Shown: positions 254-8,704, counted from the stretch's first letter. The stretch is 8,959 nt of DNA from Candidatus Desantisbacteria bacterium CG1_02_49_89 (GCA_001871075.1 MNUP01000007.1:1-8959), one strand, 5' to 3'. Numbers and translations: made by a program. The notes: generated from the letters alone by a model not told the origin.

Positions 254-368
254 AATTATGAATTATGAATGATGAGTTATGAATCAACTGCAAGGATTTT
301 TTAATTTAAAATTCAGGGCTTAAGCCCTGACTCCTTGACTCATAATTCATAACTCATAACTCATAATT
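254..368. repeat. Inverted repeat with 7-bp tandem units in each arm
   Basis: The left arm (254-287) reads as AA, then TTATGAA, TTATGAA, TGATGAG, TTATGAA, then TCAA. The right arm (335-368) is its reverse complement with 5 mismatches in 34: TTGA, then CTCATAA, TTCATAA, CTCATAA, CTCATAA, then TT. The spacer holds a perfect 18-bp palindrome, TCAGGGCTTAAGCCCTGA, at 313-330. The element fills almost the whole gap between gatB and the upstream amidohydrolase, and its right arm overlaps the last codons and stop of that gene. There is no T-run after a compact GC stem, so it does not look like a standard terminator. Its function is unknown. Confidence 0.9.
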
Positions 369-1614
369 GTATTTTAAAGAAGTCAAGCGCGTTGTCGCGG
401 AGGAGCTTGCGGGCGAGCATAAGGCATTCCTCCTCGTCAAACCAGCCCCTTTTGTATTTTTCCTGGATAACCTGGAAAATGATCTCCCTGGCTATGCGCG
501 AGTGAGCGTAAGCCCCTTCGGCAAATATATAATCCCCGCCAAACCCGAATATCTTGTTGTTGGGGATCGTGTCAAGCCAGTCGTGGAGTATCTTCTTAGA
601 GGCGGTGGGCGATATCACGTACATCCAGCACATGTCCGCGTAAACGTTGGGGAAATTCTTCGCCATCACGGCGAGTTCCGAGGAATACGGGTAGCCGGCG
701 TGAAATATGTCGAATTTCAGGCAAGGGTATCTGAAGAAAAGGTTAAGCAGGTGCACGGGGTTTGAATTCGTAAGGTAATTGCCGTTACCCTCCTGTATGC
801 CGGTGTGGACCTGCAAAGGAAGGCCTTTCTTTTCAAGCTTCTCAAGCATCCTGTGCATCAGGAAATCCTGCAAAGGCTTGGGGTCCGTGGCTTCCTTCTT
901 GAGGATCCTGTCAAGAACAATGCCGGCGACGGACTTGTCCGTGTCCTCGAATTTAAGGATGCGGGCGTAGGCAAGCCCGCATTTGGCAGCGCAGGCTCCG
1001 TCCCTGACAGCAGTGTCTATCGCCGCATCAATGGTCCCGGACAAGTCGTCCACCGACGCGATCTCTTTTTTGAAAGCCTTCGATATCGCGTCAATGCTTT
1101 CCCTGTTCCATATCCCGATAAGCCCGTCAGTGTAAACGACAGGCGCGAAAAAATCCCTGTCAAGCTTTCCGAAATAGTGCATGTCCTCGGGCCTAAGGGA
1201 TATGTCGATCCCGGCTTTTTCCTTCAGCACCCATTTGTAGAATCCTTTTTTATTCGCAGCCGAGATCTTTTCGGAAAGCTGAGCGAAGGTTTTTCCGCTT
1301 ATTTCATTTACGCCGTACAGCTCTTTTGCCGCGAAAATCAGGGCCTTACCGTAACCGGTAGTCCTTACGCATTCCCAGTAAGGAGCAAACTTTTTCCATC
1401 TTTCTTCAAGCGGCTTCCCCGTGTCCCTGCATTCATTCAGGTCTTCGGGCTTCATCCCGGCAGAGATCAGGTCGCAGGAGGCGTAGTGGGAAAACCAGTG
1501 GAATAGGTCCACCTTTTGCCCGAGGCGCTCTTCCTCGGTCTCCAGGTGCTCGTGGGTGTCTATTATCCTTATCTCGCTTATTTCTTTTTTCAGCCTATCC
1601 TCGAAATTTTTCAT
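361..1614 (-). CDS. Amidohydrolase-superfamily TIM-barrel protein (amidohydrolase 2 / uronate-isomerase-like)
   Basis: This is a 417-residue predicted metal-dependent hydrolase or isomerase of the amidohydrolase superfamily. Landmarks fit the fold: HxH after strand 1 (IDTHEHL, His21 and His23), a possible ligand lysine (AAKCGLAYAR, Lys211), a strand-5 histidine (LQVHTG, His270), a strand-6 histidine (FHAGYPY, His305) and the strand-8 aspartate (GFGGDY, Asp361). The substrate cannot be read from the sequence; the closest general resemblance is to COG2159-like and glucuronate-isomerase-like members. No signal peptide is seen, so it is probably cytoplasmic. The ATG at 1614-1612 has a GGAGA site 5-6 nt upstream. 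The final codons (QL and TGA) lie inside the arm of a 7-bp repeat element, so the present C-terminus may have been set by that repeat. It sits between gatA and gatB, an unusual place, and may simply be a passenger in that operon. Confidence 0.85.
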   Translation of the reverse strand: MKNFEDRLKKEISEIRIIDTHEHLETEEERLGQKVDLFHWFSHYASCDLISAGMKPEDLNECRDTGKPLEERWKKFAPYWECVRTTGYGKALIFAAKELYGVNEISGKTFAQLSEKISAANKKGFYKWVLKEKAGIDISLRPEDMHYFGKLDRDFFAPVVYTDGLIGIWNRESIDAISKAFKKEIASVDDLSGTIDAAIDTAVRDGACAAKCGLAYARILKFEDTDKSVAGIVLDRILKKEATDPKPLQDFLMHRMLEKLEKKGLPLQVHTGIQEGNGNYLTNSNPVHLLNLFFRYPCLKFDIFHAGYPYSSELAVMAKNFPNVYADMCWMYVISPTASKKILHDWLDTIPNNKIFGFGGDYIFAEGAYAHSRIAREIIFQVIQEKYKRGWFDEEECLMLARKLLRDNALDFFKIQL

Positions 1615-1632
1615 GCTGTCTCCATATTTATC

Positions 1633-1711
1633 GTCATACGTCGTACGTCATACGTCGTACGTAAATCTTTAAGAGCATTAAACGCAAGACGTTCGACTTA
1701 CGACGTTCGAC
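1633..1711. repeat. Second inverted repeat with 7-bp tandem units
   Basis: The left arm (1633-1660) is two perfect copies of the 14-mer GTCATACGTCGTAC, i.e. four GTCRTAC heptads. The right arm (1684-1711), read on the minus strand, is GTCGAAC, GTCGTAA, GTCGAAC, GTCTTGC and matches the left arm at 21 of 28 positions. A 23-nt AT-rich spacer (1661-1683) separates them. It fills the 98-nt gap between gatA (its stop codon begins 2 nt away) and the amidohydrolase start. It has the same architecture as the element at 254-368 but different heptad sequence. It may form a hairpin in the intergenic mRNA. Confidence 0.87.
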
Positions 1712-1713
1712 GG

Positions 1714-3135
1714 TTATTTATTCTGCTCGTACGCGAATGCGGCGCGCAGGATGTCTTCCTCGGCGAAATATTTACCGAGTATCTGCAGGCCCACAGGAAG
1801 CCCGTCCTTTGTCGTTCCGCAGGGGACCGAGATCCCAGGTATCCCGGCAAGGTTCGCGGAGATCGTGAATATGTCCGACAGGTACATCTGCAAAGGATCG
1901 CTTGTTTTCTCCCCTATCCTGAACGCGGGCGTTGGAGATGTAGGTGTCAATATCACGTCCGCCTTTCCAAACGCCTTTTCAAAATCCTGCCGTATAAGAG
2001 TGCGGACTTTATTCGCTTTCAAATAATACGCGTCATAGTATCCGGCGGAAAGAACGTATGTGCCCAGCATTATCCTGCGCTTTGCCTCTTTGCCGAACCC
2101 GTCAGCCCTGGTCTTCTTATACATATCGATAAGGTTTTCGCCTTCTTTCCTGTGCCCGTATTTTACCCCGTCATAACGCTCAAGGTTGGAGCTCGCTTCT
2201 GCTGTCGCGACTATGTAGTAGGTTGCCACGGCGTATTCCGTGTGCGGAAGCGATATGTCCACGCGCCGCGCGCCGAGTTTCTCAAGCGCCTTTATCGCTT
2301 TTTCAACTGCCTGCCTGACCTCAACATCTATGCCTTCTATGAAATATTCCTTCGGTATGCCCAGTTTCATCCCTTTCACGCTGCCTGACAGCGCCTTTTT
2401 ATGATCCGGCACCGGCTTGTCCACAGAGGTTGAATCCTTGGGGTCATACCCGCTTATCGCGTTCAACAGTATCGCGCAGTCAGTCACGTCCCTTGAAAAA
2501 GGCCCTATCTGGTCAAGCGAAGAACCGAACGCTATGAGCCCGTAACGGGAGACCCTGCCGTATGTGGGCTTCATGCCGACAACCCCGCACAGGGAAGCAG
2601 GCTGCCGTATAGAGCCGCCTGTATCCGAGCCAAGCGACACTATTGCTTCGCAGGAAGCAACCGCAGCGGCCGAACCGCCGCTTGAACCGCCGGGAACGTA
2701 TCCTTTTTTTCTGGGATTTTTAGTGGGGCCGAAATGCGAAGATTCAGTGGACGATCCGAAAGCAAATTCGTCCATATTCGCCTTGCCTGTGAAGATGGCG
2801 CCCGCGTTTTTCAGCTTTTCTATGACGAAGGCGTTGTAAGGAGGGATAAAATTGTGCAGTATCTTTGAGCCGGCGGTTGTCTTTCTTCCCTTCATGCACA
2901 TATTGTCCTTTATTGCTATTGGAATCCCATAAAGGGGATCGTCGGACGTCGAGCGTCGGACGTCGAGCAAAGCTGCTTGCTGCTCCATGTCGTCAAAAAC
3001 AGTTATATACGCGTGGATATCCTTCTCGGAAGCGGAGATCTGCTTTTCAACCGCCTTCACGATATCTAAGGGGGAAATTTCCTTTTTTACGAGTTTTTCG
3101 TGCAGCTCATGGCAGGTCAGTTCATTCAGTTCCAT
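1714..3135 (-). CDS. gatA: Asp/Glu-tRNA(Asn/Gln) amidotransferase subunit A
   Basis: GatA is the glutaminase/amidase subunit of GatCAB; it releases ammonia from glutamine for transfer to the mischarged tRNA held by GatB. The 473-residue product is full length for the family. The amidase-signature triad is visible: Lys76 in IPIAIKDN, the cis-serine Ser151 in [11 protein letters not shown], and the nucleophile Ser175 in [13 protein letters not shown]. Other hallmarks include FCGVV-like [42 protein letters not shown] and a C-terminal [13 protein letters not shown]. The ATG has a GGAG site 5 nt upstream (3144-3141). Residues 57-68, just before the conserved [12 protein letters not shown], are encoded partly by a perfect 14-bp tandem repeat. 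No gatC is found upstream in this window, and gatB is separated from it by an amidohydrolase gene. Confidence 0.97.
2941..2968. repeat. 14-bp perfect tandem repeat (four 7-bp units) inside gatA
   Basis: GTCGGACGTCGAGC occurs twice in direct tandem, which can also be read as GTCGGAC, GTCGAGC, GTCGGAC, GTCGAGC. It matches the intergenic 14-mer at 1633-1646 at 10 of 14 positions and shares its 7-bp periodicity. It is translated on the minus strand as part of [11 protein letters not shown]. Because 14 is not a multiple of three, the two copies are read in different frames. It falls in the variable linker before the GatA catalytic lysine region, where inserted residues are likely tolerated. No inverted partner arm is seen nearby. 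Confidence 0.88.
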
Positions 3136-3196
3136 TTTTTCTCCAACGATTGATTACGGTGATTTCAACTAATGATTACGGTGATATTAAAATCAC

Positions 3197-3220
3197 CACG
3201 GAGACACAGAGGCACAGAGA
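3197..3220. repeat. Three 8-bp tandem units; likely left arm of an inverted-repeat element
   Basis: The sequence reads CACGGAGA, CACAGAGG, CACAGAGA and is followed by AAAT. The minus-strand counterpart (TTTTC...TGTG...CGTGG) resembles the sequence at 3307-3382 once the inserted hairpin block there is removed: that leaves two 8-mers, TTTCGTGC and TTTCGTGG. The same motif family recurs between the two dehydrogenase genes (8542-8677). I read it as one arm of an octad version of the inverted-arm elements. Pairing between the arms here is loose. Confidence 0.6.
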
Positions 3221-6160: not shown

Positions 6161-6296
6161 AAGCTGATCAAAGGAACGCAGGATAAATCCTGCGGCTACC
6201 ATTCTATCAAATGTGCCAATATCATGCCTGAGGCAGACCCGCCTAAACCCAGATGGCGGGAATGGCACCGCTACATTTGACCTTTGAGCTTTGAGC
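6161..6296. repeat. Nested inverted-repeat block with heptad remnants
   Basis: The right edge holds three 7-bp units, TTTGACC, TTTGAGC, TTTGAGC (6276-6296). Part of this (CCTTTGAGCTT, 6281-6291) pairs with AAGCTGATCAAAGG at 6161-6174 if three bases bulge. Inside are TCAAATG/CATTTGA (6207-6213 with 6274-6280), TGCCA/TGGCA (6214-6218 with 6263-6267), GCCTGAGGC (6226-6234) and CCCGCC/GGCGGG (6238-6243 with 6255-6260). On paper this gives a stem carrying two hairpins. The outer parts resemble a decayed member of the 7-bp arm elements. Nothing here codes for protein. Confidence 0.55.
6177..6194 (-). terminator. 8-bp hairpin, possible weak terminator for the DUF1016 gene
   Basis: CGCAGGAT and ATCCTGCG form a perfect 8-bp stem with a 2-nt loop. 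On the minus strand it lies about 165 nt past the DUF1016 stop and is followed by TTCCTTTG, only a poor U-tract. It could end transcription before the small gene at 6136, or it may just be another palindromic repeat. The tract is too weak to be sure. Confidence 0.3.
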
Positions 6297-6301
6297 TGCA
6301 G

Positions 6302-8528: not shown

Positions 8529-8541
8529 AATTTTCCAAGAA

Positions 8542-8677
8542 ACCACAGAGGACACAGAGAAAATAGTTTTACTCTGTGACCTCCTGAAAACTATATTCTG
8601 AAGATACTAAGAGAGCACACGGAGCTTTCATTGTATTTGAATTTAATATACCCGCAAATCTCTGTGCACTCTGTGGT
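8542..8677. repeat. Inverted-arm element between the two dehydrogenase genes
   Basis: ACCACAGAGGACACAGAGA (8542-8560) and TCTCTGTGCACTCTGTGGT (8659-8677) are inverted copies differing at 2 of 19 positions. Between them ATAGTTTT (8563-8570) pairs with AAAACTAT (8587-8594), and further CTCTGTG-like and CACACGGAG-like pieces occur. The arms are close to the 8-bp units at 3197-3220. The element fills most of the 187-nt gap between the zinc dehydrogenase stop and the SDR start. No protein-coding gene or clear promoter is seen in the gap. Confidence 0.82.
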
Positions 8678-8704
8678 ATATTTTTATTTGAATCTCAATC
8701 TGTT

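Follow-up and report, generated by a model that had tools for sequence, protein, structure and literature searches.

Seven-base-step arrays in a Candidatus Desantisbacteria genome: a lineage-specific population of many words, possibly spread by short-patch copying

Heptad arrays in the window

The window, i.e. the whole stretch of 8,959 nucleotides from Candidatus Desantisbacteria bacterium CG1_02_49_89 analyzed here, contains an amidohydrolase ORF (361–1614, minus strand) and gatA (1714–3135, minus strand; amidase PF01425, E 6.6e-158). The three repeat sites described in the initial annotation of this DNA are all present, and a fourth array was found in addition (Table I). Site 1 (254–368) consists of two arms of four TTATGAR heptads separated by a core of 53 nt. 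Its left arm, AATTATGAATTATGAATGATGAGTTATGAAT, matches itself at lag 7 in 20 of 24 positions and has as third heptad ATGATGA, a family-specific variant that occupies the same place in other TTATGAR copies, whereas the right arm supplies the stop codon of the amidohydrolase ORF. In site 2 the left arm has a lag-7 match of 21/24; the inverted arm (reverse complement CGTCGAACGTCGTAAGTCGAACGTC; lag-7 match 14/18) follows after a spacer of 25 nt and stops just short of the gatA stop codon.

Table I. Repeat features of the window
Feature	Position	Strand	Basis and remarks
TTATGAR element, left arm (site 1)	254..284	+	four heptads + 3 nt; Tandem Repeats Finder
TTATGAR element, core (caactgcaagg...ccttg)	285..337	+	alignment of 17 same-genome copies
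TTATGAR element, right inverted arm	338..368	-	Tandem Repeats Finder
GTCRTAC pair, left arm (CGTCATA...) (site 2)	1632..1662	+	period 7 and 14; between amidohydrolase ORF and gatA
GTCRTAC pair, inverted second arm	1688..1712	-	mixed words GTCGAAC and GTCGTAA
GTCGRRC single array (CGTCGGACGTCGAG twice) (site 3)	2940..2968	.	in gatA CDS; one arm only
Fourth array, TTTGACC/TTTGAGC (TTTGACCTTTGAGCTTTGAGCT)	6276..6297	+	Tandem Repeats Finder and sequence-blind scan

Site 3 lies inside the gatA coding sequence and not in a spacer, and is translated in frame as DVRRSTSDD. The sites had been regarded as united by architecture (a 7-nt period and inverted arms) rather than by sequence. Site 1, however, is not a matter of architecture only, as it belongs to a sequence family whose copies have a conserved core, and the pairs of GTCRTAC arms, site 2 included, have in common an 'aaatctttaa' motif that adjoins the arms, as found by inspection. 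Elsewhere in the window, the regions 3144–3220 and 8530–8690 hold a 22-nt direct repeat, CAACGAATGATTACGGTGATTT, together with CACAGAG/CTCTGTG words in short inverted arrangements; the latter represent a further repeated word type of the source genome.

Period 7 in the source genome

The source genome (G000) comprises 2.48 Mb in 150 contigs, of which a sample of contig-start stretches amounting to 830 kb (approximately 33%) was scanned for self-match at a given lag, the sequence itself being ignored, with first-order Markov shuffles as control. The expected enrichment over shuffled DNA was borne out: 207 period-7 arrays were observed and none in the shuffles, which excludes chance, the density corresponding to 1 array per 4 kb, an estimate that is not strictly unbiased because some contigs of the third batch were picked for a surface domain described below, the unbiased first batch of 264 kb having a similar density. 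The 207 arrays fall into 71 heptad classes and their length shows a sharp mode at 31 nt, i.e. four heptads plus three bases. Periods 3–6, 11–13, and 15 yielded 0–6 arrays each, and periods 8, 9, and 10 yielded 48, 47, and 20 arrays, respectively, mostly of few words. These arrays of period 8 (TGAYACGY), period 9 (AGTTTACAN), and period 10 (CACGAATTNN, CTGTGTTNAC), encountered in stretches L031–L050 and L220–L258, are approximately 28–40 nt long, have mostly one or two words per period, and in the case of period 9 occur in part as inverted pairs.

Such an excess of 7-nt tandem units over shuffles and over other periods is what characterizes heptanucleotide repeats of the LSSR or STRR type, whereas 71 classes among 207 arrays depart from the one or few words of the published repeats (a trait of these repeats rather than a formal definition). 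The proposed 7-nt rule that is independent of the word is a strong one, and extends to unrelated genomes. The inverted arms, on the other hand, stand at sites 1 and 2 but not as a general plan. The scan of the same third of the genome for inverted same-word pairs recovered 25 of them among 273 period-7 arrays (looser threshold), with TTATGAR in the majority; for array pairs taken at random, an inverted match was seen in only 2.3%. Inverted pairs are thus a minority, and most arrays are without an inverted partner. The three-heptad pattern of TTATGAR, searched in the whole genome, gave 262 matches compared with 1 for the reversed control. Assembly joins at repeats were rejected as an origin of the arrays, since many of them sit inside continuous conserved genes (gatA, lepA, ispG, carB).

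Recurrence of words and of whole arrays

Grouping the 174 non-TTATGAR arrays by word leads to 69 classes, compared with 158 expected from random 7-mers of the genome and a minimum of 148 in 300 random draws. The idea of a family defined by architecture rather than by sequence is supported for the period, which is independent of the word, but not for the words, which are reused far above chance. Nearest-neighbour distances between the word classes differ little from those between random words.

The recurrence extends to whole arrays, which reappear at unrelated sites while the sequence around them differs. In 38 pairs of non-TTATGAR arrays the two members have 24 or more identical nucleotides (24–33 in most cases), and in nearly all of these pairs the identity of the next 25 nt on each side is 0.12–0.5, mostly 0.2–0.5, like that of unrelated sequence; the few tandem or paralogous pairs have more flank sequence in common. 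The array GTTAAAGGTTAAAAGTTAAAGGTTAAAAGTT is present at two unrelated sites. Its imperfect heptads follow one another in identical order at both, for which independent growth would be hard to invoke. The occurrence of whole arrays at unrelated places suggests that DNA is copied in short patches, by a process that has an inherent step of seven bases.

The TTATGAR element

The TTATGAR word also moves as a MITE-like element of approximately 105 bp, in which two inverted arms enclose a conserved core. The element is asymmetric, was aligned in 17 copies from the same genome and is found in both orientations; its arms are approximately 83% complementary, and most copies carry, at the same place on one arm, a variant third heptad that is usually ATGATGA. 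TTATGAR arrays are nearly all intergenic, with only one in an ORF. The TTATGAR element is short and non-coding, with terminal inverted repeats, a conserved core, and many copies, as MITEs are. The target-site duplication that belongs to the definition of MITEs was not detected, flank identity over 2–9 nt not being above that of permuted flanks (lowest p 0.07). Screening against Rfam gave no match to a known RNA family.

Occurrence in other genomes

The only relative of the same order, Candidatus Desantisbacteria CG1_02_38_46 (G001), contains only 3 period-7 arrays in 267 kb, and its whole genome lacks TTATGAR arrays. Nineteen stretches of other genomes contain 2 period-7 arrays in 362 kb, and 16 occur in the 1.24 Mb of 80 gatA neighbourhoods belonging to many phyla. 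Among 386 genomes, a TTATGAR array is present in 23, and CGTTACA arrays in the source genome only. The array population is lineage-specific, and similar period-7 arrays exist in at least three unrelated genomes: in the stretches from G116, G191, and G318, all of other families, period 7 lies far above other periods, with several words in each genome and array lengths that are often near 30 nt. As the majority of these stretches were picked for containing TTATGAR, their array densities are biased, but neither the period nor the diversity of words is explained by this choice. The ATGATGA variant was also seen in TTATGAR arrays of two genomes from one other family, G318 (stretches L348, 8215, and L349, 2592) and G185 (L355, 3435), which hints at a shared origin or a transfer with the source genome. 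The genome collections yielded no close relative with an empty site, and consequently no event is seen at the nucleotide level.

Arrays inside coding DNA

About a third of the arrays (73/207) lie within ORFs, according to simple ORF calls. The first 60 residues contain 30 of the in-ORF arrays compared with 11.7 expected, and these N-terminal arrays are often located in apparent signal peptides. The modal length of in-ORF arrays is 31 nt, which is not a multiple of three, and yet the frames are open; the edges of the arrays must therefore vary.

A surface-protein domain (FYYKD..G.PVI....DTQTE), present in approximately 90 copies in giant ORFs of up to 5280 amino acids, constitutes a natural laboratory for these arrays. 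It was encountered on contigs C21, C28, C49, C58, C62, C70, C72, C91, C116, C127, and C138 of the source genome (e.g. stretches L033, L043, and L247). The slot PVI-x9-DTQ of this domain is occupied by arrays of several different words in eight copies and has a length of nine residues in all eight, as well as in 15 of the 19 copies that have a weak array or none; in paralogous copies whose flanks are comparable, this slot holds CTATSAG, CGCGTAT, or CCACTGR words. Arrays that fill the nine-residue slot without lengthening it argue for a replacement of native DNA rather than insertion only. The peptides encoded in the slot still show much of the native pattern T-[VA]-x-R-x-x-L-x-A; for their fit to the native slot they rank in the top 0–2.3% of the 1168 possible array peptides of the genome, ranks that are approximate because the candidate set includes close versions of the same words. 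Such a fit could come from selection alone.

Comparison of protein lengths, every one of which is blurred by variable loops, leads to a mixed picture (gene names other than gatA are our reading of the sequences). With respect to G001, the net difference is −4 residues for GatA, −1 for the N-terminus of a radical-SAM protein, and about 0 for PyrK; with respect to homologues it is about 0 for PurD and about −4 for the second site of IspG. MiaB (+11), LepA (+9), HypF (+8), and CarB (+7) are longer than their homologues, as are IspG (at one site), ProRS, and Dxr, the gains being overall roughly +4 to +11. Since some coding arrays add residues, plain insertion happens as well, and on comparison of the sequences both insertion and replacement, the latter often at little or no cost in length, occur at coding arrays. 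The clean insertion of a fixed unit was consequently rejected as a general rule, considering also the in-ORF mode of 31 nt and the several comparisons without net gain. The G001 orthologues (L161–L164, L271, L279) often have a different insert, one of their own, in the same protein loops, e.g. DKKGTVPDPDDKMGTVP or repeated ECVTQDF.

A copying model and its alternatives

We tentatively consider, with somewhat less than even confidence, that the sites of the window belong to a lineage-specific array population dispersed over the whole genome, with a step of 7 nt, a size of approximately 31 nt, and some 70 words, and that this population spreads by short-patch copying. One copying process, as the initial annotation had suggested, is the best reading of the data, and we infer that the spread takes place at replication forks, through either short-patch template switching or the annealing of short single-stranded DNA. 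As an array presents the same short word in four registers, a nascent 3' end finishing in this word could prime there; the primed strand would copy about four heptads and would then return to its own template. Words would diversify by mutation, slippage by 7 nt would re-homogenize the arrays, and coding copies would persist only where the encoded peptide fits. The copying model leaves the 7-nt step and the length of approximately 31 nt without explanation. A wider form of the model appears possible but doubtful: several unrelated lineages would possess a word-independent activity that copies DNA in steps of 7 nt and patches of approximately 31 nt, overwriting sequence, including that of essential genes, from a changing pool of heptads, and the words would be selfish replicators without a transposase of their own.

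A search of the literature yielded no tested cause of heptanucleotide repeats, and a genome with hundreds of arrays of approximately 70 words, which recur whole and rewrite coding sequence in frame, opens this cause to testing: any mechanism must yield the 7-nt step, the size of approximately 31 nt, the independence of the word, and length-neutral replacement. If the model is true, the arrays would bring about changes of protein sequence in signal peptides, linkers, and surface-domain loops, and would represent an unrecognised kind of very small replicator.

A spread of the MITE or REPIN type, where a Y1 (RAYT-like) or other transposase would act in trans on hairpins and the lone arrays would be decayed halves, agrees with the structure of the TTATGAR unit (inverted arms and conserved core over approximately 105 bp, 17 aligned copies, both orientations) and with the 10 Y1_Tnp matches in the source genome. 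We nevertheless judge it unlikely. Eight of the 10 Y1 loci, inspected with flanks of approximately 1.5 kb, are devoid of period-7 arrays besides one weak array of 20 nt (period-8 and period-10 arrays lie near two of the eight), whereas flanking REPs are a constant feature of the RAYTs in PMC3116915. Nor does Y1 follow the arrays, as the array-poor G001 has 3 matches and G222, with TTATGA arrays, has none. The TTATGAR element has no target duplication, the lone arrays have only the array itself in common, and 70 words would require many transposases.

Polymerase slippage acting locally, with 7 nt as the preferred step, was proposed for heptanucleotide repeats in work cited in PMC4679880 and would let each array grow in place from its own seed. 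It accounts for the word-independent period and for the dominance of period 7 in the stretches from G116, G191, and G318, but seems quite improbable in view of words common to many sites far above chance and of imperfect arrays with the same variant order at unrelated places. Moreover, lengths cluster near 31 nt instead of being spread, and growth in place should lengthen proteins, whereas the slot copies of the surface domain keep their length.

That the arrays are selected regulatory elements, retained for a function as hairpin, terminator, or binding site, is very unlikely for the population. A regulatory role was proposed for the TAACTGA repeats of Beggiatoaceae (PMC4679880), the TTATGAR pair of the window folds far better than shuffles (z −7.5), and nearly all TTATGAR copies are intergenic. 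However, once the elements were oriented, the complementarity of own arms was 0.831, compared with 0.850 for shuffled arms, i.e. arms of other elements, and the own-arm value was reached by 99.96% of the shuffles; furthermore, 29 of the intergenic TTATGAR arrays could be placed, and not one of them lies between convergent genes. As own arms pair worse than shuffled ones and convergent placement is lacking, hairpin formation, put forward earlier as a possible selected property, is not visibly favoured. Selection for a perfect hairpin and quasi-palindrome correction were rejected on the first of these results and terminators on the second. The 73 arrays in ORFs also speak against a regulatory reading, and the words are too many for one regulator; for single copies such a role is possible.

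Reverse transcription, in which a telomerase-like or DGR-like enzyme would make cDNA of heptads for integration into the genome, was judged highly improbable: DGR retrohoming preserves target length and the source genome holds a reverse transcriptase gene, truncated and with a GNLTSQ motif, but this gene is incomplete at a contig end, and RVT_1 matches do not follow array content, being absent from the array-bearing G191, G318, and G345 and full-length in the array-poor G001. The truncated gene (L297, 1303–1923, at the contig end of G000:C119) has the motif IPIGNLTSQ, of a kind seen in DGR and related reverse transcriptases.

Comparison with known repeats

Heptad arrays and inverted pairs are already known from the GGGAATC repeats, of which four units are the commonest form and 70–75 convergent inverted pairs occur per Xanthomonas genome (PMC4692102). 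The GGGAATC and GGGGA(C/T)T repeats of Xanthomonas and Nostoc likewise have period 7 and mostly four units, are dispersed, and form convergent inverted pairs (PMC4692102); few are in genes and their placement varies among related species, which we count as a likeness. They differ by having one G-rich word per genome, with G-quadruplex potential, whereas the source genome has approximately 70 words, mostly lacks G-runs, and has about a third of its arrays in ORFs. According to a survey nearly twenty years old that is cited in PMC4679880, the long simple repeats of most bacterial genomes are more often heptanucleotide repeats than repeats of any other unit length. The TAACTGA direct repeats of marine Beggiatoaceae described in PMC4679880 are likewise short heptanucleotide arrays at more than 100 sites with a patchy taxonomy; unlike the present arrays, they consist of a single word, with related words rare, in 2–6 units mostly just upstream of start codons, and neither a many-word rule nor overwriting was found for them in the accessible parts of that paper.

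REPINs and their RAYTs resemble the present arrays in forming inverted doublets that fold into hairpins, with genome-specific sequences and extragenic copies (PMC3116915). REP units, however, are not period-7 arrays and flank a RAYT gene, a linkage that the eight Y1_Tnp loci do not show. The Rickettsia palindromic elements (reviewed in PMC10969869) are likewise selfish repeats lying in frame in conserved genes. They are insertions of approximately 150 bp with a conserved peptide, whereas the heptad arrays measure approximately 31 nt, have many words, and are frequently length-neutral; in-frame palindromes of approximately 150 bp are not what the ORFs of the source genome contain, the in-ORF arrays being mostly single and approximately 31 nt long. 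Neither the many words per genome, nor the recurrence of the array as a unit, nor length-neutral, in-frame replacement was found in the literature accessible to us, most subscription journals lying outside it.

Cyanobacterial STRR are reported by Elhai (2008; cited in PMC3116915) to host very small mobile dispersed repeats set in tandem heptamers, with nested insertions. There the element is a sequence of 21–27 nt inside the heptamers, whereas in the source genome it is the heptad array itself that recurs. The nested insertions of these small repeats may be compared with the small palindrome CAGGGCTTAAGCCCTG inside the core of site 1, which is absent from most other TTATGAR copies. Small palindromes nested in TTATGAR elements (CAGGGC..GCCCTG and CCCCTTGGGG) were noted at window 314–329 and in stretches L228 near 9740 and L250 near 1330, and they resemble nested small dispersed repeats.
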